From Candidatus Gastranaerophilales bacterium (GTDB taxonomy: Bacteria > Cyanobacteriota > Vampirovibrionia > Gastranaerophilales > Gastranaerophilaceae): a stretch of DNA of 64,000 nucleotides. Positions within the stretch are counted from its first letter, which is position 1. Every line of letters starts with the position of its first letter. Positions 39,531 to 55,264 of this stretch are shown here, piece after piece. The notes under the pieces were generated by a model that was not told the origin of the DNA, ran no database searches, and was given only the letters and a program-made list of their open reading frames with translations. Location: contig CALURK010000001.1 of the NCBI GenBank assembly GCA_944323165.1, positions 62,001 through 126,000 on the forward strand, read 5' to 3'. Made by a program: the position numbers and the translations under genes.

Positions 39531-39968
39531 ATGTCATTTCAAGTAATGGATGTGGCTAGATATATAATTAACTATTGTACTGAACAGGGTAAACCTGTAA
39601 GTAATTTAAAGTTACAAAAAATGTTGTATTATTTATGGATTGATTACTATAAAAATACTAATGAGTATTTATTTGATGAAGATATTTGTGCATGGCCATT
39701 TGGTCCGGTTGTACCTAGTGTATATTTTGAATATTGTTCTTATGCAGGAACTCCTATTGTACGAAGATATTCTGATTTACAAGACATTTTCAATGGAGAT
39801 ATATCAATTGAAATTAATAATATTATTGACAAATATATAGATTTTACACCAAATCAGCTAGTTCATAAATCGCATGAGTCTAATTTACCTTGGGATAAAA
39901 TTTATAATCAGCAAAAAGGATATAAAGAAATAATTCCTTTTGACCTAATTGTTCAATTGGAGTGTTAA
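39531..39968 (+). CDS. Panacea-domain antitoxin (SocA/DUF4065 type)
   Basis: A 145-residue protein with the Panacea signature: 'VARYIINYCTEQGKPVSNLKLQKMLYYLWIDYY' at the start and 'AWPFGPVVPSVYFEYCSYAG' in the middle. Panacea domains are antitoxins found with many unrelated toxins, including membrane-acting ones, and often on prophages and mobile elements. The stop is six bases before the next start, the usual antitoxin-toxin spacing. The partner toxin here would be the downstream membrane protein. Confidence 0.85.
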   Translation: MSFQVMDVARYIINYCTEQGKPVSNLKLQKMLYYLWIDYYKNTNEYLFDEDICAWPFGPVVPSVYFEYCSYAGTPIVRRYSDLQDIFNGDISIEINNIIDKYIDFTPNQLVHKSHESNLPWDKIYNQQKGYKEIIPFDLIVQLEC

Positions 39969-39974
39969 TTTCTT

Positions 39975-40811
39975 ATGATGTTGCTTGAACAAAGAAATAA
40001 ATGCGATGAAACGCTTTGTAAATATATTAAAGAACTTGCAAGTGAATCATTAAATGAGGAAGAAATAAAAAAATATGCATACCTACTAAAAGATTTATAT
40101 ACCCTAGAGTATCGTCATTCGTATTCTTTATTTTTCCCGATAATAACAGAAATTGAAAAAGATAAAAGTTCTAGTGTAGAATATTTAACAAGTAACTTGG
40201 AAACACTTAAAGGAATTGTTGAACGCGACAAGTTAAAAGATGATAAAGAATTTGAAAAACTTTATTTGCCATTATTTAAACTTATTGACCATATTAATTT
40301 AGAAATTGCTCGATACCTTAATTATATGGAAAAAGAAGAACAAGCCACAACTCTAGAACAAAAAATAGAAAAGTTAAATGTTTCACTTAATCAAGCAAAA
40401 AATGAATTAGGAATTGCCTCAAGAAAAATTAAATCTGTACAAGGAGAACTTATAGCAGTTTTGAGTATTTTTGCGGCTATTGTAATGACATTTTCAGGCG
40501 GTTTAAACATATTAAATGGTGTATTAGCAAGTTGTAATGACTTAATATTCCCAGAAAGAGTATTGTTTTTATTAATTTGTGGCTTGATATTAATCAATTT
40601 TATTTTTGCTATGATGTATTTTGTTGCTAAAATCACAGATAGAAGTATCTATGCACGTTGTGAAACAGAAAACTGTACATGCAAAAACAACAAAAGTCCT
40701 AAATGTAATGGGATAACAAGAATAATGAAACGATTACCCTATGTATTTTGGTTAAATCTTGTAATTATAGCCTTAATACTACTAGATATATTGTGGATAA
40801 TATTTTATTAA
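39975..40811 (+). CDS. Membrane protein, candidate toxin paired with Panacea antitoxin
   Basis: A 278-residue protein. Residues 1-150 are charged and helical with a coiled coil at about 115-155. Then come three membrane helices at about 158-178, 190-217 and 255-278. A Cys cluster between helices 2 and 3 ('CETENCTCKNNKSPKCN', four Cys) looks like a small metal-binding knuckle. No enzyme motif. Position directly after a Panacea gene makes it the candidate toxin, probably acting by membrane disruption; that is inferred from gene order. Confidence 0.6.
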   Translation: MMLLEQRNKCDETLCKYIKELASESLNEEEIKKYAYLLKDLYTLEYRHSYSLFFPIITEIEKDKSSSVEYLTSNLETLKGIVERDKLKDDKEFEKLYLPLFKLIDHINLEIARYLNYMEKEEQATTLEQKIEKLNVSLNQAKNELGIASRKIKSVQGELIAVLSIFAAIVMTFSGGLNILNGVLASCNDLIFPERVLFLLICGLILINFIFAMMYFVAKITDRSIYARCETENCTCKNNKSPKCNGITRIMKRLPYVFWLNLVIIALILLDILWIIFY

Positions 40812-40863: not shown

Positions 40864-41383
40864 ATGTACTATTTTCCAAACCTAGATGATACAACACGCT
40901 TAATCATGATTACTGAGCTTGAAATGGATTTAAAGAATGGCTTGTTTTATGTTCCAAAGTCAATTAAGCCTGATTTTGTTTGTACATATAAGAAAATACT
41001 TAGAAACACTTTTGAAAAAGGAGATGTAAATAGCTTAAGAAGAAATCTTATTCCCAACTTTTTTAAGGAAAAAGATAAAAATGGTAAAAAAAATGCCATC
41101 AAATATTCGTGAAATGCTAGCTTTTTCAGATTTTAATAGATATTATATGAGAGCTATATTATTAAGAGCTATTGATGAAAGAAAATCTGTTATAGTATAT
41201 AGAGCAAAAAGTTCTGTTTCTGAAAGAGTTGATTCCAAATTACTGATTAATCAAAGTTTTTCGATAAAATCTACACTTACACAAATGTTAAATATTCTGA
41301 GAAATTATAAGATATTATTCAATGAGCAAAATACTTTATTATTTTGCAAACCAAATTCAGGTTTGAGCTTAAAATTATTCTAG
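40864..41383 (+). pseudogene. Two-frame gene split at an A8 run (mobile-element family of unknown function)
   Basis: Two overlapping frames, 40864-41112 (82 residues, 'MYYFPNLDDTTRLIMITELEMD...') and 41081-41383 ('MVKKMPSNIREMLAFSDFNRYYMRAILLRAID...YRAK...'). Together they look like the N- and C-terminal halves of one family known from mobile elements. Members I recall have 'FPNLD..TR..M..E' at the start and 'P.nA.E.LAEGEFNRFYIR....A......VYRAK' later in one chain. The frames meet at an A8 run (41086-41093); with seven A the two halves fuse in frame. It is either a frameshift mutation, a sequencing error, or slippage-controlled expression. Confidence 0.55.
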
Positions 41384-41692
41384 CAGGCTATTTATTATTT
41401 TATATATGTTTTTTAGTTCTTCTTCATTCGCTTTTTTCAGAAGGGAGATAATTTGTTTAAGTAAAAGGTCTTTGCTCTGTAAATGTTCTGTTCTAAATAA
41501 TTTTGTATATTCAACATCTAAAGCTTCTGCAAACTTTTCAATTAAATCAGCTTTGGGAAAACTTCTGCCCGTTTCAATATGGCTCATGTGTTTAGGGTCA
41601 ATCCCAACTATTTCAGCTAATTGATATTGAGTAATTCCCTTTTTGCTTCTAAGTTCTTTTAATCTCATTCCAAAGTCTTTTTTTAAGTCCAT
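41375..41692 (-). CDS. XRE-family regulator with C-terminal helix
   Basis: A 105-residue DNA-binding protein. HTH at about residues 12-66 ('KGITQYQLAEIVGIDPKHMSHIETGRSFPKADLIEKFAEAL'), then a leucine-rich helical tail at 75-105 likely for dimerisation. GGAGGG precedes the ATG. It is divergent from the glycan cassette (154-base gap) and is the obvious candidate for its regulator. It overlaps the end of the split gene by nine bases. Confidence 0.85.
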   Translation of the reverse strand: MDLKKDFGMRLKELRSKKGITQYQLAEIVGIDPKHMSHIETGRSFPKADLIEKFAEALDVEYTKLFRTEHLQSKDLLLKQIISLLKKANEEELKNIYKIINSLLE

Positions 41693-41846
41693 AAGCCCTC
41701 CTTCATGAGGATATATGCACTCATCAAACTTATAAACCGTATTTAAAACATCCAGATGGGTAATATGTCTGTTTTTAATATTGTAATTCTGTATTCAATA
41801 TGGTAAAATATTCCCAAAATATGTTCTAAATAAGGAATATAAAGTT

Positions 41847-43097
41847 ATGGAAGTGAAAATTAGTATAATAATTCCCGTATATAATGTGGAAAAATACCTG
41901 CGAGAATGTTTGGATAGCATTCTTAATCAATCATTTCAAGATTTTGAAATAATCTGCGTAGATGACGGTTCTACAGATAGATCCTTAGCGATTTTACAGG
42001 AATACAAAACAAGAGATGATAGATTTGTAATTTTGCAACAAAGACATTCGGGTGCCGGAGCTGCTAGAAATAATGGTATAAGACTCGCAGAGGGGAAATA
42101 TATACAATTCCTCGATGCTGATGATTATTTTGAACGAACTTTATTAGAAGATATGTTTACGTATGCAGAACAGCATAATGCGGATTTAACTGTTTGTTCG
42201 TCTAAAAAAGTTGACATAGATGGTAATGTTATAGAAACAGGAAGCCCAAATTTCCCAATAAATATAGACAAAATTCCTTTGGGACAGAATTTTAGCAGGC
42301 ATGATTTCAAGGATGAAATATTTTGCCTGTTAATTCCTGTTGTTTGGAATAAGCTGATTCGGAAATCGTTCTTAAAAGAAAATTGTTTAGAGTTTCCACC
42401 TTTGACAATTTATGAAGATATAGCATTTATTCATAGCTTGGTTATTTGTGCAGAGAGAATCATTGCTTTTAATAAAGAACTTATTAATTATAGATTTAAT
42501 CGACCGGGAAGTCTTGTAAGTACTCGTTCAAAACATACAATCGATGCTGTTAAATCTTGTGTTTATTTAGGACAATTCTTAAAATCACGAGGCTTTTTAC
42601 CAGAGTACGAAAATGCTTATAGAAAGGTCTTTATTAATCATATAAGGGCAGAAATTAGTTATTGTAATGATGAAGAATATAGAAAATTTTTAGAAGATTT
42701 CAAAACATACCTCCCTAATGATTGGCAAAAGTATCAATCAGCTCTCAGAAAAGATTACATCACGCCCGAATATCTCAAAAAGTTTATAGGTAATAAAAAA
42801 GTTATGCTCTGGGGTGGAAGTCTTTTTATAAGGCAGGTGTTAGAAAGGGAAACTGAAAAAAATCCGAATATCTTAGGGATAATTGACAGAAACGTAGCCT
42901 CTGCAGGTAAACAATTCTGTAACTATACAATTTACCCTCCGGATTCGATAAACGAATTAAAACCTGATGGAGTAATATTAACAGTTTTATCTAATAATGA
43001 ATCTATTTATGAGTCATTGAAAGAAGAGTTTAATGAAAAATATCCGAGTATTGAATTAATGCCAAATATTTTTGAAGAGGAGATAGTGTTTTGTTAA
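41847..43097 (+). CDS. Family 2 glycosyltransferase with C-terminal WGxSLYL domain
   Basis: A 416-residue GT-A fold transferase. The N-terminal 'ISIIIPVYNVEKYLRECLDSILNQSFQDFEIICVDDGSTD' (residues 5-44) and 'QFLDADDYFE' (metal-binding DxD at about 91-94) are classic for GT2, as in cell-surface polysaccharide synthesis. Residues 319-416 form a separate Rossmann-like domain ('VMLWGGSLFI...ILGIIDRN...DGVILTV') also found at the ends of the next two proteins. First gene of a three-gene cassette; the next gene overlaps its stop. Cytosolic or membrane-peripheral. Confidence 0.88.
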   Translation: MEVKISIIIPVYNVEKYLRECLDSILNQSFQDFEIICVDDGSTDRSLAILQEYKTRDDRFVILQQRHSGAGAARNNGIRLAEGKYIQFLDADDYFERTLLEDMFTYAEQHNADLTVCSSKKVDIDGNVIETGSPNFPINIDKIPLGQNFSRHDFKDEIFCLLIPVVWNKLIRKSFLKENCLEFPPLTIYEDIAFIHSLVICAERIIAFNKELINYRFNRPGSLVSTRSKHTIDAVKSCVYLGQFLKSRGFLPEYENAYRKVFINHIRAEISYCNDEEYRKFLEDFKTYLPNDWQKYQSALRKDYITPEYLKKFIGNKKVMLWGGSLFIRQVLERETEKNPNILGIIDRNVASAGKQFCNYTIYPPDSINELKPDGVILTVLSNNESIYESLKEEFNEKYPSIELMPNIFEEEIVFC

Positions 43098-44365
43098 ACT
43101 CATTAGGCACACCGTACGAAATAATACCAATATTTAGCAAGAGCTCTATAAATATAGCTTTTTCGTTTAATGATGAGTACAGCAAGTTTTTTAGTGTTAC
43201 TTTGCAATCTCTGATATGTAATTCTGATAGCAATAAAAACTATGATATTGTTGTGTTTTCTTCTGATATAAAAGAGCGTAGTATGAAAATGCTACTGCGC
43301 ATGATTCCTCAAAATTTTAGTTTGCGTTTTTACAGTTTAACAGATTTTATTCAAGAAAGTTTTAGGGATATAAAGTTTGAAGAAAAAGATTATTGGTCTG
43401 TTGAAATGTACTACAGGATTTTTATACCTATAATCATGCATAAATATGAGAAAGTTTTATACCTTGATTCTGATACATTAATCAATAACAATATTGATGA
43501 GCTCTTCAGTATATCTTTTGATAATAAAAAACTTTTAGCAGTATGCGATACTACTTCGCCTGAATTGTACTTAGATAAAAATAGATCTAGGTGTGAACAT
43601 ATAAAAAATGTTTTAGGGTTAAAAGACGAAACAAAGTATTTTAATTCCGGCATGCTTTTATTCAATATCTCATTAATTGATGTTAAAGAATACTCAAAAG
43701 ATATTTTAAGAGTTTTACATATTGATAAGCTACTTTATCCCGATCAAGATATGTTAAATGTTTTGTTTGAAAAAAGTGTTAAATTTATATCAAGCAAATG
43801 GAATTATGGCTCTAATGTGCTTGTTTGCAATAGAAATTACCTTAGAGAGATTCCTGAACAAGCAAAACAAGAATTTTTAGAAAGCCGCAAAAATCCCAAA
43901 ATAATTCATTTTATTTCACCTAAAAAACCTTGGAATTCTATAGGCGAAGAATTTTATGAAACTTTTTGGCTCTATGCTCGTAAGAGTCCTTTTTATGAAG
44001 AGATTTTGTTTGTAATGTATAAAAATGAAATTTTCGAATCAAGGTATGCTACAAATTTATACCTAATGCTACAAAATAACAAAAAAATAATATTTTGGGG
44101 AGCAAGCCTATATCTGGAAAATTTCTTAAAAAAATATGAAATTAACAAAAAATTTTATCCTCAAATTATTGGAATTATTGATACAAATTCAACAAGAAGA
44201 GGTAACTTTTTAGGTGATTATGAAATTTTTTCTCCTGATATATTAAAAGACTGTAAAGTTGATGAAGTTATATTAACTGTTATTAACTCTCTTAACGAAC
44301 GATACGAGGAAGTGAAAATTTATTTAGAAGAACAGGGGCTGGATATTAAGCTAACACGATTATGA
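43091..44365 (+). CDS. Family 8 glycosyltransferase with C-terminal WGxSLYL domain
   Basis: A 424-residue GT8 retaining transferase (galactosyl/glucosyl type in lipopolysaccharide or capsule assembly). Typical blocks: 'MYYRIFIPIIMHKYEKVLYLDSDTLINNNIDEL' with the DxD (DSD), 'YFNSGMLLFN', 'PDQDMLNVLF' and 'IIHFISPKKPW' near the end of the catalytic domain. The start is TTG 43091 with GAGGAGA 8-9 bases upstream, overlapping the GT2 stop. Residues 333-424 repeat the domain seen in the GT2. The non-ATG start and overlap suggest tight co-translation. Confidence 0.86.
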   Translation: MLNSLGTPYEIIPIFSKSSINIAFSFNDEYSKFFSVTLQSLICNSDSNKNYDIVVFSSDIKERSMKMLLRMIPQNFSLRFYSLTDFIQESFRDIKFEEKDYWSVEMYYRIFIPIIMHKYEKVLYLDSDTLINNNIDELFSISFDNKKLLAVCDTTSPELYLDKNRSRCEHIKNVLGLKDETKYFNSGMLLFNISLIDVKEYSKDILRVLHIDKLLYPDQDMLNVLFEKSVKFISSKWNYGSNVLVCNRNYLREIPEQAKQEFLESRKNPKIIHFISPKKPWNSIGEEFYETFWLYARKSPFYEEILFVMYKNEIFESRYATNLYLMLQNNKKIIFWGASLYLENFLKKYEINKKFYPQIIGIIDTNSTRRGNFLGDYEIFSPDILKDCKVDEVILTVINSLNERYEEVKIYLEEQGLDIKLTRL

Positions 44366-44375
44366 GGATTTTTAA

Positions 44376-46850
44376 ATGAAATTAACCCAAAATTGTACGG
44401 GCTGTATGGCTTGTTATAACAAGTGCCCAAACGGAGCGATTACGATTTCTTACAATGATGCCGGATTCTATACTCCACATATTGACCCGAATAAATGTAT
44501 CGATTGCTGTTTATGCACTTCTGTATGTCCTCAAGAGAAAGAAATATCAAAAAGGAAAGAAGCAACAACATGTTATGCGGTTATGGCTGATGATGACATT
44601 AGAGAACAGAGTGCTTCTGGTGGGGTTTTTGCAGCAATAGCAAAAGAATACTTTACAAATAATGGTTATGTCTGCGGAGCTGCTTTTTCGAAAGATTTTA
44701 AGCACGTCAATCATATAATTATAAATGATGAAAAAGATTTAATTCATTTGCAAAATTCAAAATATGTTCAAAGCAATATTGGTAATACTTTTTCTGAAAT
44801 AAGAATTTTGCTTGAAAACGGGAAAGAAGTTCTTTTTAGTGGAACTCCCTGTCAAGTTGCGGGGTTAAACAGTTATTTAGGTAAAAATTATAATAATTTA
44901 TTAACAATAGATCTTGTTTGCCATGGAATTCCGTCTCCACTTGTATGGGAAAAGTACATATCTGAAATTGCAGGAAACAAACAAATTAAAAAATTGAGTT
45001 TCAGAAATAAAGATAAAGAATGGGGAGCTCCATATGAGCTATTAGTGTTGTTTAAAAACAATTCTAAATTTAAGGAACAGTGCTCTTCTAACATATTTTA
45101 TAGAAGTTTTTTTGAACATCTTATTCTCAATGAACCTTGTTATAATTGTAAATATACCAATCTAAGTCGTCAGGGGGATATAACAATAGGTGATTTTTGG
45201 GGCATAAATAATTTTGATACAGATTTAGATGATGGCTTAGGAACATCGTTAGTAATTATCAATTCTGTAAAAGGTGAGAGAATAGTAAAAAAAAATTATG
45301 ATAATTTAAAAAAGATTAAAGAAATTCCTATTAACTATGCTATTAATTTTAATCCCAGATTAAAAACACCAAGTGAAAGAAATCTTAAGAATAATATTTT
45401 TTTAGCAAATTTAGATAAGAAAACAATTATTAAAAATATGAAGGAAAATTTGGTTCCAAAATATGAAGGAATTATTTGCAATTATTGGAATATTCCAAAT
45501 TTCGGTGCCACACTTTCTGCTTATGCTATTCAGCAATATTTTTTTAAACACGGAAAATATTATTATTTATTAAAAACAAAAGCATCACCTGCTTTTGTTG
45601 ATGAATTTGCAAAAAAATATTTAAAAACTACGCATATTGTAAAATCAAAATTACACTTATTAGAACTTAATAAAAGTACCAATAATTTTGTTATTGGTAC
45701 AGATCAGGTCTTGAGAGAAGATTTTGTTATTAAAGATTTAACAAAATCATTGTTAGGTTATACAAATTTTAATAAAAAAAGAGTAGTTTTTTCTGGAAGT
45801 TTTGGTAATGATAAATTGTTCATTCTTAATAATATAGAAAAATTATTATATTCAAAGTACATTAAAAGGTTTGATGCCATATCTACAAGAGAAATTTCTG
45901 GAAAAGATATTTGTAAGAATGAATTTGGCTTAAATGCCGAATATATAATTGACCCAGTTTTCTTGGTTAATAAAGAGATATGGGATAATATGGCTGCTAA
46001 TACAGGAGATAAATATAAAGGGAAAATTGTTACATATTTGTTTTACGTAAATTCAGAAACAAACAAAATGTTAAAATATCTAGAAAAAAAATATAACAAA
46101 AAGATTGTAGCATTAGAAAATGGAAAAATTTCACCTGAAGAATTTTTATCAGGTATTAAAAATGCAGACTATGTTGTTACAAATTCTTTTCACGGGATGT
46201 GCTTTTCATTAATTTTTAATAAAAAGGTGCTGTGTATAAAAAGTATCACATCTGGAAGATTTAATAGCCTAATTAAGCTTTTTAATATTACAAATTTATT
46301 TGTTAATAACTATAATGAAATTTATTCTAAAAATGATTTATTTTCTGAGTATGATAGAAATAATATAGAAAAAGTGATTAATCAAGAACGATTGAAAGCA
46401 GAAGAATGGTTTGATAAAGCTATAAATAATGGCAAACAAATTACTTTAAAAAATATTCTTGCTGAATTGGATTATAAAATGTTTTCATTATTCGAAAAAG
46501 CCTTAAGGTTTGTTATTAATAAATACATAAAATTTAAGTTTTTACTTCTTTGTTTTATGACTAAGAGAAAAGTTATTTTATGGGGAGCAAGTTTATATCT
46601 GGCTGATTTACTAAAGAAAAACCCTAAAATATCAGAGAATATATTAGGAATAATTGACAATAATTCTGCATGGCATTATAAAAGATTTCACGGCTGCATG
46701 GTCTATCCTCCGGAAAAACTGGCAGAACTTAAGCCGGAACTTGTTATTTCTACAGTAAAAAATAATCACGAAAAAGTATATAGAGAGATAAAGGACTACC
46801 TGACGGAATGTTATCCTGATATAAAACTTTTGCAAGATTTATTCAACTAA
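44376..46850 (+). CDS. FrhB-type ferredoxin/polysaccharide pyruvyltransferase fusion with WGxSLYL domain
   Basis: An 824-residue three-part fusion. Residues 1-55 hold two [4Fe-4S] motifs ('CTGCMACYNKCP', 'CIDCCLCTSVCP'). Residues about 65-345 are FrhB/F420-hydrogenase-beta-like ('SASGGVFAAIA', 'FSGTPCQVAGL', 'CHGIPSPLVWEKY', 'GDITIGDFWG'). Residues about 365-700 form a polysaccharide pyruvyltransferase-like domain ('NIPNFGATLSAYAIQ', 'VIGTDQVLR', 'DPVFL', 'TNSFHGMCFSL'). Residues 733-824 repeat the domain shared with the two upstream glycosyltransferases. FrhB-pyruvyltransferase fusions occur in capsule loci; the first part may supply electrons for sugar modification, but the reaction is not established. 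Confidence 0.85.
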   Translation: MKLTQNCTGCMACYNKCPNGAITISYNDAGFYTPHIDPNKCIDCCLCTSVCPQEKEISKRKEATTCYAVMADDDIREQSASGGVFAAIAKEYFTNNGYVCGAAFSKDFKHVNHIIINDEKDLIHLQNSKYVQSNIGNTFSEIRILLENGKEVLFSGTPCQVAGLNSYLGKNYNNLLTIDLVCHGIPSPLVWEKYISEIAGNKQIKKLSFRNKDKEWGAPYELLVLFKNNSKFKEQCSSNIFYRSFFEHLILNEPCYNCKYTNLSRQGDITIGDFWGINNFDTDLDDGLGTSLVIINSVKGERIVKKNYDNLKKIKEIPINYAINFNPRLKTPSERNLKNNIFLANLDKKTIIKNMKENLVPKYEGIICNYWNIPNFGATLSAYAIQQYFFKHGKYYYLLKTKASPAFVDEFAKKYLKTTHIVKSKLHLLELNKSTNNFVIGTDQVLREDFVIKDLTKSLLGYTNFNKKRVVFSGSFGNDKLFILNNIEKLLYSKYIKRFDAISTREISGKDICKNEFGLNAEYIIDPVFLVNKEIWDNMAANTGDKYKGKIVTYLFYVNSETNKMLKYLEKKYNKKIVALENGKISPEEFLSGIKNADYVVTNSFHGMCFSLIFNKKVLCIKSITSGRFNSLIKLFNITNLFVNNYNEIYSKNDLFSEYDRNNIEKVINQERLKAEEWFDKAINNGKQITLKNILAELDYKMFSLFEKALRFVINKYIKFKFLLLCFMTKRKVILWGASLYLADLLKKNPKISENILGIIDNNSAWHYKRFHGCMVYPPEKLAELKPELVISTVKNNHEKVYREIKDYLTECYPDIKLLQDLFN

Positions 46851-49608: not shown

Positions 49609-49677
49609 TAATTGATAATATCTTTGGAGTGAGGAAACCTCACTCCTTTCTTTATGAGTTTATTACAAGGGAAAATC

Positions 49678-51339
49678 ATGGTTAAATATATAGAAAATAT
49701 AAACTACGCACTTCACTTATGTGATACAGAAGACGATGAATGGCAAGTTAAGATTGCAAATTACGGATTGAGTCCGCTTGTCGTAATAAATGAAATTTTA
49801 GCAACAAAGAATAAAGAAGAAACTACTCAAAAGTTACTCATACGCTTGTGCAAAGAATCAGAGCCAAATGTATCTTATTCAATTAAATTATGCGGAGAAG
49901 ATGAGATTGATATAAAATCATTCGTTAGAGCTGTGCACAGAAATATTATTGGTTTATGGGAAAACTTTAGTAAAACAACTTTTAATATTCTCCGGCATGA
50001 ACTTAGCTTCTGTGAAGTTAAAATTGATATTTATAAAAACATAGGATACCAGTATTCACTACCAGTATATGTATTAGGAGATAAGCTCTTTAATTTTGAA
50101 GTTAAGCAGCTTGAAAAATATTTATCTGTATTAGATAAATTACAATTAACTGAAATGGAAAAACTCCAAATTTTAGAGTTTAGCTCTCCTAAAATTAAGA
50201 TTTATGAGTCAGAAAATCCAAAACAAATTTTATTAGAATTTGTTGAAACAATGCTAAAATTTTTTAATGATTCAGCAGTTATTGTAGCAATTGGTGTTTG
50301 TTTAGGAATTCCGTTTTTTGATTTATTCACCCAATATGCTCAAGGTTTTCCGTATATTATGTTCTATGGTGACTCACAAGCAGGAAAAACAGTATTACTT
50401 CACTGTTTAGCATCTATTTTTGGAATCAATAATAATAAAGATATTACAAGTGGAACATCAACAATAAAAGTTATTAGAAGGAATTTATCAAGGTATAATT
50501 GTTTCCCTCTTTTTATTGATGAAATAGAACAGAAACGCATTGAAGAATATGAGGATTTAGGAAAAGATAGTTTTTCTGGAATTCCTCGTAAAGTATGTTC
50601 AAAAGATGGTGGAGAAATAGTAACGGATATAAATACAACGTTTTGTGCTACGACAAATTATTTTTTCGAAAATATGACTTTAGCGAATTTTTCAAGGTGT
50701 ATTCTTGTAAATATGCCTTTTGAGCGTTTTAACCTTGATAATTTTAAGTATTTTTCAAAAGTAGAACGAGAAAAATTATCAGCAATATTGCCTTTAATTT
50801 TATCATATCGAACAGAGGTTATTGAAAGATACAAGCAACATTTTGAAATAGCTAAAAAGTATTCTAACCGTAGTAGGCTTTGTAATAATCTTGCAATCGG
50901 AATGACTATATGGTCTGTAATTAATGATATTCTTGAGGTTGAAGTTGTTAATACTGATAACTTGGCAAAAGGGTATTTTGAGTATTTTCAGCGCTATGAA
51001 GATACTGAACTAAAATATTCAGATATTTTTCTTAGTACTGTGTATCGTTTATTTAATGAAGGGCAACTTTTATATGGTAGAGATTTTGTTATTACTAGAA
51101 ATCAAGTTTTGCGCATAAATCTAAGTAAATTTTGTGCTATTTTTAACAGTTTGAATAGTAAACAAAAACTCAACACAGCACAATTAAAGCTCAAAATTGG
51201 TAATGATAGGTGCTTCGATTTTAATGCCACAGATTTAAGACCAATTGGTAAGGCAATTAAAGTTAATATTGCGGACAATGAAACTCTTTTAGACATTAAA
51301 AATCGTGTTAGCGTAAACGTAGGAGGTGAGGATGAGTAA
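49678..51339 (+). CDS. DUF927/SF3-helicase-like P-loop ATPase
   Basis: A 553-residue ATPase. Walker A GDSQAGKT is at residues 231-238, Walker B 'LFIDEIE' at about 278-284 and a sensor-type 'CATTN' soon after. The layout resembles the replicative or primase-associated DUF927/VirE-type ATPases of integrative elements and plasmids. The N-terminal 220 residues are without motif; no primase catalytic motif was seen. The start is ATG 49678, behind AAGGGA, rather than the earlier ATG at 49654. It overlaps the first recombinase gene. Likely part of the element's replication or maintenance. Confidence 0.7.
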   Translation: MVKYIENINYALHLCDTEDDEWQVKIANYGLSPLVVINEILATKNKEETTQKLLIRLCKESEPNVSYSIKLCGEDEIDIKSFVRAVHRNIIGLWENFSKTTFNILRHELSFCEVKIDIYKNIGYQYSLPVYVLGDKLFNFEVKQLEKYLSVLDKLQLTEMEKLQILEFSSPKIKIYESENPKQILLEFVETMLKFFNDSAVIVAIGVCLGIPFFDLFTQYAQGFPYIMFYGDSQAGKTVLLHCLASIFGINNNKDITSGTSTIKVIRRNLSRYNCFPLFIDEIEQKRIEEYEDLGKDSFSGIPRKVCSKDGGEIVTDINTTFCATTNYFFENMTLANFSRCILVNMPFERFNLDNFKYFSKVEREKLSAILPLILSYRTEVIERYKQHFEIAKKYSNRSRLCNNLAIGMTIWSVINDILEVEVVNTDNLAKGYFEYFQRYEDTELKYSDIFLSTVYRLFNEGQLLYGRDFVITRNQVLRINLSKFCAIFNSLNSKQKLNTAQLKLKIGNDRCFDFNATDLRPIGKAIKVNIADNETLLDIKNRVSVNVGGEDE

Positions 51340-52759
51340 GGAAATAATAGCAGATTTATACATCAGATTATCCTCTAAAAAACAAGAAAAAGGTATGTCT
51401 AAAACGTTTCAAATTTATGAATGTAAGAAATATTGTAAAAATAAGGGGTACAAAGTACGTAATATTTACTATGAAAATAAAAGTGCTAAAACCCCTGAAA
51501 AAAGACAGGTTTTTAATGAATTGATAGCAAGGCAGAAAACAAAAGAAAGAGCGGATGTTATAGTTGTTTATGCTGTTAATCGTTTGGCAAGAAATCCTGT
51601 AGATTTTTATCAAATACGTGAGCCTGTAGATAAATACAATACTGAGTTTGTTTTTGTTAGGGAATATTTAACAGTTAAAAAACCGTTTAAAGCGCATCAA
51701 AAATATTTAACAAGTATTCTAGTCGCTACGGCTGAATATGAGGTTGATGCTATGACAGAAATTCGCATGCGTGGTTCTTTAGAACGAGCATTAAGTGGAA
51801 TTCGCCCAACTAAACTGAATTATGGTTATGGGAAGCGTAACGGCAAAGTTGTGATTATTCCTAAAGAGGCGGAATTTGTTAAACAAGCTTTTACTTTATA
51901 TGCTAGTGGAAGATTTTCACTTAATTCTTTGGCTGATGAGCTTTTTCAACTTGGTTATTATTATAAGAATCAGCGTAACGGAAAAATTCCACGAGCTAGT
52001 TTGGCAAGTATGCTGAAAAGTATTTTCTATACAGGAAAGTATTACTTTCCTGGGCATGAAGGGATTATCCAAGGAAAGCATAAACCTATTATTGATGAAG
52101 AACTTTTTAATCAAGTTCAAAAGGTTTTAAAAAAGCCTTCCAGTGAAATCAAAGAGAAACATCAATTTTTGTATAATGGATTGATTAGGTATAAAGAAAC
52201 TGGTGGTTTTATGAGCGGTGAGGTTAAAAAAGGGGGTAAATATATTTACTATACTGCTCGTAATGCGGATAATTCTTGTTGTTGTATAAATGAAGAGATT
52301 ATTAATGAAAATGTACTTAATCGTCTTAAGCTTATTAAGTTAAATAAAATCCCTAAAAATATTGCAAATGAGGTTTTTAAAGAACATTTAAAACCAATGT
52401 CACAAGCACTTAGTACTGCAAAACGAGCCTTAAGCCGTCAATATCATGAGGAGTTAAAACTCAAAGAATATGTTGATATTAATGGGATTGAAGATACTGA
52501 TTTTATTGAGTCGGAGTATGCTGAGATTAAAGAAAAGTATAAGGATGTTTCAAGTAATATTCAGATGTTGGAAGATAGAATATCTTTGCAAAAATCTAAT
52601 TATCAAGAGGTTTTAAACAAGAATCTTGCAGAAGTCTTTAGAAATTTAGGTTTTGAACAGAAGCGACAAGTACTAGAACTTGTCAAAAGTAAATTTGATG
52701 GGAATTTTGATAAAAAAGTAAAAATAACCTTCAAATCTGCGTTTAGAAAACTTCTGTAA
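51332..52759 (+). CDS. Large serine recombinase with degenerate zinc ribbon
   Basis: A 475-residue recombinase. N-terminal resolvase domain with nucleophile Ser in 'YIRLSSKKQ' (S14) and 'VVYAVNRLARN'. The recombinase domain is at about 175-290 ('LNYGYGKRNGKVVIIPKEAEFVKQAFTLYASGRFSLNSLADEL'). In the next region the zinc-ribbon cysteines are largely gone: 'GLIRYKETGGFM' replaces the CxxC and only 'SCCC' remains. A coiled coil at about 375-430 and a C-terminal DNA-binding part follow. AGGAGGTGAGG precedes ATG 51332. A terminator follows. It may act with or regulate the second recombinase. Confidence 0.85.
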   Translation: MSKEIIADLYIRLSSKKQEKGMSKTFQIYECKKYCKNKGYKVRNIYYENKSAKTPEKRQVFNELIARQKTKERADVIVVYAVNRLARNPVDFYQIREPVDKYNTEFVFVREYLTVKKPFKAHQKYLTSILVATAEYEVDAMTEIRMRGSLERALSGIRPTKLNYGYGKRNGKVVIIPKEAEFVKQAFTLYASGRFSLNSLADELFQLGYYYKNQRNGKIPRASLASMLKSIFYTGKYYFPGHEGIIQGKHKPIIDEELFNQVQKVLKKPSSEIKEKHQFLYNGLIRYKETGGFMSGEVKKGGKYIYYTARNADNSCCCINEEIINENVLNRLKLIKLNKIPKNIANEVFKEHLKPMSQALSTAKRALSRQYHEELKLKEYVDINGIEDTDFIESEYAEIKEKYKDVSSNIQMLEDRISLQKSNYQEVLNKNLAEVFRNLGFEQKRQVLELVKSKFDGNFDKKVKITFKSAFRKLL

Positions 52760-52797
52760 AAGTATAATCCTTTCATTTTTAATTCTTTATGTCTATA

Positions 52798-52826
52798 GCC
52801 ACGCTAATACTAGCGTGGCTTTTTCT
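52798..52826 (+). terminator. Terminator after the first recombinase
   Basis: Perfect stem GCCACGCTA/TAGCGTGGC with a four-base loop, then a T-run. Confidence 0.9.
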
Positions 52827-52946
52827 TTGACTTCTTTCACTTTTTAGAAAACTTTTCTAAGAGTTTTTCTTGAAAAGTATTTACTTTTTGCAAAAAAGAT
52901 AAAAAATTAAATCAAATAAAGTTCAGATTTTTGCGGAGTATTGATT

Positions 52947-53387
52947 ATGCTTACTTATTCAGATGTGCAAGAAATTTATTACCGAAATCACGGTACAACA
53001 CAGTATTTTAAAAGAGGATATTGTAATAATCTGTTTTATACTGATGGAGTTATGGACTTTCAACGCTCTTTGGATGCTTATTGGGTTGTAGATAATGTTA
53101 TAAGTTATATGCCAAAAGTCTTAAAGCGTTTTCGTGAATATGAGTCAACTTATTATACTGTGGAAATAGTTTTAAATCGTGAATATATGGGTTACATGGA
53201 AGTTTATGCAGAAGATTATAACGATAATGGTGATTTTGATGAACATATAACTATTATTAAGCAAAACATACCATTTATAGATCTACCATATAATGAAGAT
53301 GAGGAATTAACTTCTTATAAAATGTATTTAAGGATTTTGAGCTATGAAAAAGAACAGTTTGTTTTACTGCTGCCTTCGGAAGATTAA
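52947..53387 (+). CDS. DUF6876-like small protein
   Basis: A 146-residue protein with the pattern of DUF6876 proteins of mobile elements: 'RNHGTTQYFKRG...LFYTDGVMDFQRSLDAYWVVDNVISYMPKVL', followed by acidic beta strands. These proteins are common on integrative elements and of unknown function. ATG 52947 (GGAG nine bases upstream) is preferred over the TTG at 52941. Confidence 0.75.
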   Translation: MLTYSDVQEIYYRNHGTTQYFKRGYCNNLFYTDGVMDFQRSLDAYWVVDNVISYMPKVLKRFREYESTYYTVEIVLNREYMGYMEVYAEDYNDNGDFDEHITIIKQNIPFIDLPYNEDEELTSYKMYLRILSYEKEQFVLLLPSED

Positions 53388-53619
53388 CCGACTAAATAAA
53401 CTACTAATAACTTCAGTGATAACGACTATTTTCAAAAATATATAACCCTTAATTTTAGTAACGGTAACTTTAAAAACGACCAAACGACCTCTTTTTAAAA
53501 ATATATCGACATTATAGCTTTTTGTTCTTAGAAATTTGTCCGCCAACTTTTATTTACTTTTTTGGAAAAACGTAAATAATTAAAAACAGAATGTAGCCCA
53601 ATGTTGAGGAATAAAATTT
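53388..53619. other. Intergenic region upstream of the second recombinase
   Basis: About 230 bases with no gene supported. It probably holds the promoter of the integrase gene. No clear palindrome was seen. Confidence 0.4.
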
Positions 53620-55218
53620 ATGGAACATAAGCCAGTTGTAATTTATGCAAGAGTATCAAGCCGTGAACAGGAACGAGAAGGTTTTTCTATACCTGCACAA
53701 TTAAAGTTACTTAAAGAATATGCTCTTAAAAATGGTTTTCAAATTGTTAAGGAATATTCAGACGCTGAAACCGCTAAGAAGGTTGGAAGAACAAATTATA
53801 ATGAAATGCTTGCATTTCTGAGAGAAAATCCAAATATAAAAACTGTTCTTGTAGAAAAAACAGATAGGCTTTATAGAAATTTTAAAGATTATGTAACTCT
53901 TGAAGATTATGATCTTGAAGTACATTTAGTTAAAGAAAGTACTATTATAAGTAAAAATTCAAAATCACATGATAAATTCATTCATGGGATAAAAGTTTTA
54001 ATGGCAAAGAACTACATAGATAATCTTTCTGAAGAAATTTCAAAGGGTTTAAAAGAAGCTGTAGAAGAAGGATATTGGCCATTCCAACCACCTTATGGAT
54101 ATTTAAGAGGTGCTAAAAAGAATCTAATCATTGATAATTCAAGGATTTTATTTGTAAAAAGAGCTTTTGAATTATTTGCCACTGGTAAATATTCACTTAG
54201 AAAACTTTGTGAACAACTATTTATAGAGGGATATTATTACAAGGCTGACAGACTTAAAATAACTAATTCAGTTCTTGAATCAATGTTAAAAAACGTTATC
54301 TATATAGGTCAAATGAATTGTAACGGTATAATTTATCAAGGAAAACATCCTGCTATAGTAAGTCGTGAGCTTTTTGACAAGGTACAAAAAGCATTTTTAA
54401 AAACTGATAGATCAAAGGTTCGTAAAAATTTTGAATTTATATATCCAGGAATTGCAAAATGTGGAGTATGTGGATACGCTTTTTGCGGAGAACGTCAAAA
54501 AGGTAATGTTTATTACAGATGTTCACACTATGACAGAAGTTGTCCTAATACTGAGTATATTTCTGAAAAACAATTAACTCAGGCATTAAGAATGCACTTG
54601 AAAAGAATAGGGTTAAAACCTGAAATTTATGATTTAGTGAAGCTTTCTTTAAAAATGGCTGTTGGTGATGAGCAAGAATATCATAAGCAAGAAGTGACAA
54701 GAATTAATGCAGAGTTAGAAGATTGCAAGGAAATTTTAAAAAAGATGTATTTAGATCAGGTAAATAATATTTTAGAATACGATTTATGGGTAAATCTAAA
54801 AAATGAATATGAAATAAAGCTAAGCCGTCTTATGTCAGAACTTCAACTTCATAATAAAGCTAATACAAATTTCTTTGATACAGGTCTTAAAATCCTTGAT
54901 TTATGTGGACGTGCAAGCTTACCAGCCACCGAACTTTCTGCTCAAGAAGTAGCAGATATTGTACGACAGACATATTTATCCGTTAAAATTACCAATCGTA
55001 AAGTTAATGTAATTTTCGCTGAACCATATGCTACTATTGAAAAATTGGTAAATTTAGCAAAAATAGGAATATCAGAGTTTGGATATGAAAATTTTAAGCA
55101 AAAAATAATTTCTTCTTATGATAAAAATAATGCAAATACTAAAAAAGAGCCCGAAGGCTCTGATTTAAATTGTTCTGTTTGTTTTAAATGGTGGAGGTTA
55201 GGAGATTCGAACTCCTGA
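53620..55218 (+). CDS. Large serine integrase whose 3' end runs into tRNA-Ala
   Basis: A 532-residue serine integrase. Resolvase domain with nucleophile Ser in 'IYARVSSREQ' (S13) and 'LVEKTDRLYRN'. The recombinase domain is at about 160-260 ('PPYGYLRGAKKNLIIDNSRILFVKRAFELFATGKYSLRKL'), and an intact zinc ribbon at about 285-325 ('KCGVCGYAFCGER...YYRCSHYDRSCPN'), then a coiled coil at about 355-415. The last codons cross the tRNA terminator (55141-55161), the attachment core and end within tRNA-Ala at TGA 55216-55218. It adjoins attR, as expected of the enzyme that placed the element. Confidence 0.9.
   Translation: MEHKPVVIYARVSSREQEREGFSIPAQLKLLKEYALKNGFQIVKEYSDAETAKKVGRTNYNEMLAFLRENPNIKTVLVEKTDRLYRNFKDYVTLEDYDLEVHLVKESTIISKNSKSHDKFIHGIKVLMAKNYIDNLSEEISKGLKEAVEEGYWPFQPPYGYLRGAKKNLIIDNSRILFVKRAFELFATGKYSLRKLCEQLFIEGYYYKADRLKITNSVLESMLKNVIYIGQMNCNGIIYQGKHPAIVSRELFDKVQKAFLKTDRSKVRKNFEFIYPGIAKCGVCGYAFCGERQKGNVYYRCSHYDRSCPNTEYISEKQLTQALRMHLKRIGLKPEIYDLVKLSLKMAVGDEQEYHKQEVTRINAELEDCKEILKKMYLDQVNNILEYDLWVNLKNEYEIKLSRLMSELQLHNKANTNFFDTGLKILDLCGRASLPATELSAQEVADIVRQTYLSVKITNRKVNVIFAEPYATIEKLVNLAKIGISEFGYENFKQKIISSYDKNNANTKKEPEGSDLNCSVCFKWWRLGDSNS
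55141..55161 (-). terminator. Terminator of tRNA-Ala supplied by the element
   Basis: On the minus strand AGAGCC-TTCG-GGCTCT followed by T-run, 30 bases downstream of the tRNA CCA. It is located inside the 3' end of the integrase gene, so the element provides a replacement for the terminator displaced to 33967-34000. Confidence 0.75.
55188..55196. other. Right attachment site (attR core) in tRNA-Ala 3' end
   Basis: ATGGTGGAG, comprising the reverse complement of the CCA end, discriminator base and first acceptor-stem bases of tRNA-Ala plus one flanking base. Identical to 34001-34009. Confidence 0.75.
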
Positions 55219-55264
55219 CCCCCTGCGTGCAAAGCAGGTGCTCTACCAGCTGAGCTAAACCCCC
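55189..55264 (-). tRNA. tRNA-Ala (anticodon TGC)
   Basis: Cloverleaf with acceptor GGGGGTT/AACCTCC (one G-T pair), D-arm GCTC...GAGC, and anticodon stem CCTGC/GCAGG with loop TTTGCAC giving TGC. T-loop TTCGAAT. CCA encoded at 55189-55191 on the minus strand. It is intact despite the adjoining element. Confidence 0.95.

Follow-up and report, generated by a model that had tools for sequence, protein, structure and literature searches.

The window, the 64,000-nucleotide stretch of Gastranaerophilales DNA analysed here, holds three adjacent glycan genes whose unrelated catalytic domains all end in the same Rossmann-type tail. The best reading of this tail, in which we place about even confidence, is that of a shared module binding a nucleotide or nucleotide-sugar; it probably gives the enzymes a common hold on one shared ligand, rather than being a part that spread recently, because many kinds of enzyme carry the same module in comparable short runs of genes. 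The genes and their tails are as follows (positions in the window).

41847 to 43097, plus strand: GT2 glycosyltransferase with C-terminal Rossmann tail, 416 aa, PF00535 match
42771 to 43076, plus strand: shared tail 1 (GT2 residues 309-410), WGGSLFI...ILGIIDRN, homologous to tails 2 and 3
43091 to 44365, plus strand: GT8 glycosyltransferase with C-terminal Rossmann tail, 424 aa, TTG start, PF01501
44063 to 44356, plus strand: shared tail 2 (GT8 residues 325-422), WGASLYL...IIGIIDTN
44376 to 46850, plus strand: ferredoxin/FrhB-polysaccharide pyruvyltransferase fusion with C-terminal Rossmann tail, 824 aa
46548 to 46847, plus strand: shared tail 3 (fusion residues 725-824), WGASLYL...ILGIIDNN, with Ser15 and Asp37 numbered on the 100-residue model

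The cassette is closely packed and operon-like, the GT2 and GT8 genes overlapping by 7 nt and the fusion following after a gap of 10 nt. Pfam profile search places PF00535 on residues 6-137 of the GT2 (140 bits, cut-off 23.3), and PF01501 lies on residues 21-284 of the GT8 (145.2 bits, cut-off 24.3). The fusion consists of Fer4 (residues 6-53), FrhB_FdhB_N (67-135), FrhB_FdhB_C (150-310) and PF04230, PS_pyruv_trans (375-621; 98.7 bits, cut-off 25.3), its FrhB part scoring 76.2 bits, above the curated cut-off. The earlier note had proposed that these three enzymes share a C-terminal domain, and this is confirmed: the tails, of about 98-102 residues, are homologous, with local BLOSUM62 scores of 151, 218 and 161 for the three pairs (z = 23, 43 and 27 against 1000 shuffles) and, in a MAFFT alignment, 34-41% identity and 23 invariant columns. 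The motifs named there, WG(G/A)SL(Y/F), (I/L)(I/L)GIIDxN, PP/SP, VI(L/S)TV and a last helix, are likewise correct. The DNA likeness that it had pointed out between the GT8 and pyruvyltransferase tails is real but small, extending over about 58 nt at the WGASLYL codons (score 46 against a shuffle maximum of 39), and is no sign of recent copying, since the window's tail pairs show, as proteins, the similarity usual between tails of these enzyme classes from different species.

The tail is not a universal part of the GT2, GT8 or pyruvyltransferase families, other members of which lack it in the same genome. There it is carried by one of 20 GT2 matches, one of two GT8 matches and one of three pyruvyltransferase matches, leaving some 18 other GT2s, one GT8 and two pyruvyltransferases without it. 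The three copies described here are the only strong ones, and a fourth, weak relative (G000:C26, 24 bits) lies on a different contig. Sister GT2s (37-38% identity) mostly measure 306-367 aa, too short to include a tail, and tandem GT2s of like length in loci L200-L207 have different C-termini. The tail marks short cassettes, and the genome otherwise lacks it.

A survey of gene neighbourhoods that reuse the tail, covering 44 fetched loci plus the window with 112 tailed genes, found the arrangement to recur across the order Gastranaerophilales, and 98 of the 112 genes adjoin another tailed gene. This supports the earlier note's view that neighbouring genes with catalytic domains of unrelated kinds share one module. 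Its partners in these loci include GT2, GT8, Stealth and GT-B enzymes as well as pyruvyl-, acyl- and methyltransferases, among them left-handed beta-helix acyltransferases in L087, L091 and L100; in relatives at least ten further enzyme types bear the module, in short runs of genes like this one, and its position in the chain may be N-terminal, C-terminal, internal or tandem. Relatives were sought at the DNA level with an alignment of nine closer tails as query. Carriage by known phages or plasmids was considered and dropped, tblastn of phage and plasmid records being empty, and the viral contigs searched held no relative of the tail.

Recent spread of the domain, as the earlier note had suggested, is contradicted both by the tail tree, in which tails sort by enzyme partner (25 label changes against 52.9 when shuffled, and 100 by locus), and by the identities within cassettes. 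Two tails from one cassette resemble each other no more than tails from different cassettes or species do: identity within and across cassettes is 0.361 and 0.360 for GT2-GT8 pairs (one-sided p 0.02), 0.413 and 0.397 for GT2-PST pairs (p 0.10), and 0.359 and 0.380 for GT8-PST pairs (p 0.87). That duplication or gene conversion recently spread one tail over the cassette, with no particular function, is accordingly extremely improbable; it could draw on the short likeness at the WGASLYL codons and on one clear change of partner, the window pyruvyltransferase tail grouping with that of the L087 acyltransferase (67% identity), but the window GT2 tail shares up to 93% of its residues with the GT2 tails of other species and only 34-41% with the tails of its own neighbours. 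The fusions would instead be old and passed down together with their enzymes, the cassettes being re-assorted as whole units, several of them apparently in genomic islands adjoining tRNA or tmRNA genes. The surroundings of the window's own cassette are given below.

41375 to 41692, minus strand: XRE-type helix-turn-helix regulator, upstream of the cassette (PF12844, 52 bits)
51326 to 52759, plus strand: large serine recombinase 1 of the island (PF00239 and PF07508)
53620 to 55218, plus strand: large serine recombinase 2 of the island (PF00239, PF07508 and PF13408)
55189 to 55264, minus strand: tRNA-Ala(TGC) (ARAGORN)

The stretch from 40936 to 43093 shares about 76% identity with L104 and L107. 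The end of the second recombinase gene overlaps the tRNA-Ala gene, and this tRNA is also found 0.7-1.9 kb away from the cassettes in L092, L093 and L094, tRNA-Ala(TGC) being a probable integration hotspot common to other cassettes. L090 was rejected as a clean empty site of the island: its flanks are juxtaposed but form a decayed remnant with a truncated second recombinase, so that an attachment site is not claimed. No defence-system match was found among the ten neighbouring genes.

Fold and sequence assign the tail, as a divergent member, to the PF08484/PglD-N Rossmann group. The AlphaFold2 model of tail 3 (100 residues, pLDDT 92.3, pTM 0.82) superimposes, as a predicted model, on the C-terminal domains of KijD1 and TcaB9 with VIA-align Z 11.0-11.5 and rmsd 2.2-2.5 A over 95-96 of 100 residues, followed by 3NKL (Z 10.6), Rex (9.2), the WbaP accessory domain 8T53 (9.0) and PerB (8.6). 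In TcaB9 this C-terminal domain is said to anchor the dTDP-sugar. Profile comparison by hhalign with PF08484 C-terminal sequences gave 96-97% (E 3e-9 to 2e-11), compared with 70% for PglD-type N-terminal domains and at most 13% for seven unrelated control families. The window tails are below every Pfam cut-off: neither the window proteins nor the isolated tails match PF08484 at E <= 10 (curated cut-off 23.5 bits), and the window proteins match neither PF17836 (PglD_N) nor, at E <= 10, PF13727 (CoA_binding_3/WbaP accessory domain). TIGR03570, of NeuD/PglD type, reaches E 0.0011 and 18.6 bits against a cut-off of 160.8. Among relatives, the N-terminal tail of L112 (26.0 bits) and the tandem protein of L120 (24.8 bits) pass the PF08484 cut-off, most others scoring 16-23 bits.

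Across 113 tails, G13, S15, G34 and D37 are present in 100%, F/Y17 in 99% and W12 in 95%, whatever the partner enzyme. Conservation is concentrated after the strands (3.64, 2.86, 2.72 and 2.51 bits), compared with about 2.0-2.1 bits at the opposite edge, where one loop reaches 2.5; the cleft is conserved and the outer helices are the most variable parts. The tail loop reads G-(A/G)-S-(L/I)-(F/Y)-(L/I), and the GxGxxG of NAD(P)-binding Rossmann domains is absent. In the PglD homologue Pcryo_0637 a Ser and an Asp touch the ribose, the domain forming a platform for UDP; the PglD equivalents are Ser13 and Asp35, and a second Asp of PglD anchors the uracil (PMC8040287). Judged by motif order and spacing, S15 and D37 of the tails correspond to this pair, the interval of 22 being the same, whereas position 38, where PglD has its second Asp, is basic in 79% of tails (Lys 55%, Arg 24%).

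Fold, homologues and conserved pocket together favour a substrate-handling role, one of the two that the earlier note had offered. A nucleotide or nucleotide-sugar would lie in the cleft at the C-terminal edge of the sheet, held by Gly13, Ser15, the aromatic residue 17 and Asp37; each enzyme would grip the same nucleotide-bearing ligand through its tail, and its own catalytic domain would then add a sugar, pyruvyl, acetyl or methyl group. As the glycine-rich loop is gone (WGASLFL) and the second Asp replaced, the tail may bind another ligand, or its pocket may have a structural role. A tentative and rather doubtful extension is that the nucleotide serves as a common handle, the cassettes building or decorating an oligosaccharide that is still nucleotide-attached while glycosyl-, pyruvyl-, acetyl- and methyltransferases all hold it by the same handle in an assembly-line logic, which is conceivable because the homologous domain in PglD, and reportedly also in TcaB9, holds the nucleotide-linked sugar under modification and not the donor.

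The conserved pocket would also suit an allosteric sensor binding UMP, UDP or another by-product and tuning all enzymes of the cassette, a role suggested for the accessory domain of WbaP and other large phosphoglycosyl transferases; the WbaP domain has a similar fold, binds uridine nucleotides and UDP-sugars and helps to dimerise the enzyme (PMC10942596). This is unlikely, though, for a tail that is limited to enzymes of certain short cassettes and, being absent from the genome's other GT2s, is no general flux sensor; methyl-, acetyl- and pyruvyltransferases, moreover, release neither UDP nor UMP. The docking role that the earlier note had also proposed, with the tails of cassette enzymes associating into a multienzyme complex, fits the adjacency of tailed genes, the free position in the chain, expected of an interaction module, and the dimerisation of WbaP by a domain of similar fold (PMC10942596), and is again improbable, variable outer helices around a conserved cleft pointing the other way and the lack of matching between tails of one cassette speaking mildly against pair-specific docking. 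Lower still stands the possibility of a structural relic that stabilises the fold of each enzyme and binds nothing important. Loss of the glycine-rich loop and the full-length GT2 AlphaFold2 model (pLDDT 93.6, pTM 0.89), compatible with fixed packing of tail against enzyme, agree with such a relic, but packing alone is hard to reconcile with four positions kept invariant against the unrelated surfaces of more than ten partners.

The parent fold of the module is already known. No account of the tail as a tag that marks a whole pathway, placed on more than ten kinds of glycan enzyme, was found in the literature searched, nor was any paper naming PF08484 or the domain. If the tail does hold a common ligand, it would provide a sequence tag by which enzymes of one and the same glycan pathway could be recognised in uncultured gut bacteria, and would allow a direct test between glycan assembly on a nucleotide handle and control by a shared nucleotide sensor.

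Among the closest known systems is an arrangement in Robertmurraya (L130), where three adjacent glycan genes, for an FkbM methyltransferase, a GT8 and a GT-B enzyme, carry the canonical form of the same module (z 9.6-21.7) beside an MptE/Maf-like gene; this single example comes from another phylum, and its loops are nearer the canonical glycine-rich form (GASSFG, GTGKAS, GAGEHT). PF08484 (Methyltransf_14; TcaB9, KijD1) provides the best structural match and an aligned motif, (Y/W)GA(S/P/A)...D(R/K)NP.K.G...P(E/D)...KPD, but in the C-methyltransferases it comes third within a single enzyme, after a Zn and a SAM domain, whereas the window partners are a GT2, a GT8 and an FrhB-pyruvyltransferase without the set of SAM and N-terminal zinc domains, and the tail loop lacks the later glycine, with GASLFL in place of GAxxKG. 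The N-terminal domain of PglD (PF17836), found in NeuD, PglD, VioB and PerB acetyltransferases, shares the fold, as the PerB match indicates, but its sequence match to the tail is weak. The WbaP accessory domain, of similar fold, is a nucleotide-binding domain likewise reused on unrelated glycan enzymes, being common to two unrelated classes (PMC10942596), the large monoPGTs and PglF-like dehydratases; the tails differ in having no transmembrane bundle and in sitting on enzymes of common cassettes.

The window's glycan cassette contains a closely packed trio of genes whose products each end in the same Rossmann-type module (hereafter the tail):

41847-43097, GT2 gene, with a tail of ~100 residues at the C-terminal end (tail 1)
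43091-44365, GT8 gene, with a tail of ~100 residues at the C-terminal end (tail 2)
44376-46850, ferredoxin/FrhB and polysaccharide pyruvyltransferase fusion gene, with a tail of ~100 residues at the C-terminal end (tail 3)

The three tails share 34-41% pairwise identity, and their pairwise scores exceed those of shuffled sequences by 23, 43, and 27 standard deviations. A profile search with all three, proposed in the earlier note, recovered no strong copies from the 1.93 Mb genome other than these, and one weak relative, against 20 GT2, 2 GT8, and 3 pyruvyltransferase matches. The resemblance is thus not due to chance, and the tail does not normally belong to these families, which excludes its being universal to them and upholds the claim of one module on three unrelated, adjacent enzymes. 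Structure prediction, likewise proposed, gave a confident fold for tail 3 (AlphaFold2 from 53 tails; pLDDT 92.3, pTM 0.82), best matched by residues 310-409 of the dTDP-sugar C3'-methyltransferases KijD1 and TcaB9 (Z 11.0-11.5 over 95-96 residues), followed by 3NKL (10.6), Rex (9.2), the WbaP accessory domain (9.0), and PerB (8.6). 3NKL is also matched by sequence profile (E 3e-6 to 1e-5). The window tails do not reach the 23.5-bit cut-off of PF08484, the C-terminal domain family of sugar C-methyltransferases; their relatives match it at 16-26 bits, two of them above the cut-off. With hhalign, the tail scores 96-97% against cyanobacterial PF08484 C-terminal sequences, compared with at most 13% for seven control families.

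The module occurs in 32 of 97 genomes of the family (E <= 0.001) and 57 of 386 of the phylum (E <= 1e-8). In 44 fetched loci, ORFs were called and tails marked with the family profile; counting the window, 98 of 112 strong-tail genes directly adjoin a same-strand gene that is also tailed, a fraction that is not a probability because loci were selected for holding a tail and include near-duplicates (L093/L094, L107/L123). Runs of tailed genes reach five at most. In L088, three GT2s without a tail lie ~4 kb downstream of a tailed trio, and the tag therefore singles out the cassette, not its wider surroundings. By similarity, the partners of 113 tails are 56 GT2, 24 GT8, and 8 pyruvyltransferases, the others being several methyltransferase types, acyltransferases, Stealth, and unassigned proteins; Pfam matches extend the list to GT group 1, Capsule_synth, and a radical-SAM fusion. 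The module may be C-terminal, N-terminal, internal, or tandem. One 1147-aa protein (L117:6594-10037) has a mid-chain tail and Capsule_synth (PF05159) at its end. A single 743-aa protein (L100:7050-9281) combines a GT2 and an acyltransferase with two tails in tandem, which makes it well suited to studying contacts between tails. FkbM methyltransferase genes recurrently flank tailed cassettes (L087:5519-6658, L102:11715-12881, L100:3464-4624), that of L087 having an N-terminal segment similar to this Rossmann domain in its canonical form. The glycan loci also hold stand-alone proteins, ~250-270 aa long, that carry the YGAG-type Rossmann domain twice and are possibly scaffolds or binding proteins (L051:7916-8671, L054:6022-6831, L120:8299-9066).

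The recent domain spread suggested earlier is not borne out. On a weakly resolved tree of 113 tails (102 columns), partner labels change 25 times, compared with 52.9 when shuffled, and locus labels 100 times; identity between the window GT2 tail and that of a GT2 from another species reaches 93%. Tails on different partners are equally similar within and across cassettes (0.361/0.360, 0.413/0.397, 0.359/0.380). The tails are therefore old fusions that travel with their enzymes. Partners do change occasionally, as for the window pyruvyltransferase tail, which is 67% identical to the acyltransferase tail of L087 and shares with it a four-row group of 99% SH-aLRT.

G13, S15, G34, and D37 (tail numbering) are invariant in all 113 tails, with Phe/Tyr at position 17 in 99% and Trp at position 12 in 95%, a pattern independent of partner and chain position. 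The conserved positions cluster in the loops that follow the strands, at the edge where this fold usually holds its ligand. In TcaB9 the domain holds the dTDP-sugar. The tail would most likely bind some nucleotide or nucleotide-sugar shared across the pathway. The N-terminal domain of Pcryo_0637, a PglD homologue, serves as the platform for UDP, Ser11 and Asp40 contacting ribose and Asp41 uracil, equivalent to Ser13, Asp35, and Asp36 of PglD (PMC8040287). The tails retain the Ser and Asp of PglD at a spacing of 22 but in place of the third residue mostly carry Lys or Arg; a glycine-rich loop is absent. The ligand may be the handle of the acceptor, or the tail may act as a scaffold or, by analogy with the proposal for WbaP (PMC10942596), as a regulator.

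The cassette sits in a plastic region, with an XRE regulator upstream and genomic-island features downstream (49654-55264), namely a DUF927/primase-like protein, two large serine recombinases, and a tRNA:

55189-55264, tRNA-Ala(TGC), overlapping the end of the second large serine recombinase

The same tRNA-Ala(TGC) lies 0.7-1.9 kb from the L092, L093, and L094 cassettes, and others follow tRNA-Gln (L088), tmRNA (L099), or tRNA-Met (L129). The cassette islands are likely mobile; a search for a clean empty site found none. Also upstream are a Panacea (SocA-like) antitoxin domain protein (39531-40811) and, after it, a membrane protein of 278 aa with a match to the phage family phrog_5763.

The superfamily and its tendency to fuse with glycan enzymes are already known. 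What seems new is the derived form (WGASLFL loop) tagging whole short cassettes on over ten types of enzyme; searches of an open-access library turned up no paper on it, which is limited evidence. Tandem GT2s of other genera without the Rossmann tail (L200:669-3079, L201:2560-4964, L203:1905-4310) have a different common C-terminal motif, roughly KK(R/H)xxxxDI(W/Y)YxND(K/R)(I/L)Y...KF(N/D)F...(Y/F)S(K/E)LE, so neighbouring GTs may more widely tend to carry a C-terminal module in common. In another phylum, Robertmurraya siralis (L130:4511-8309) has an adjacent FkbM methyltransferase, GT8, and glycerophosphotransferase-like GT-B, each with a Rossmann module in more canonical form than the window tails, next to an MptE/Maf-like gene and likely in a flagellin glycosylation context.
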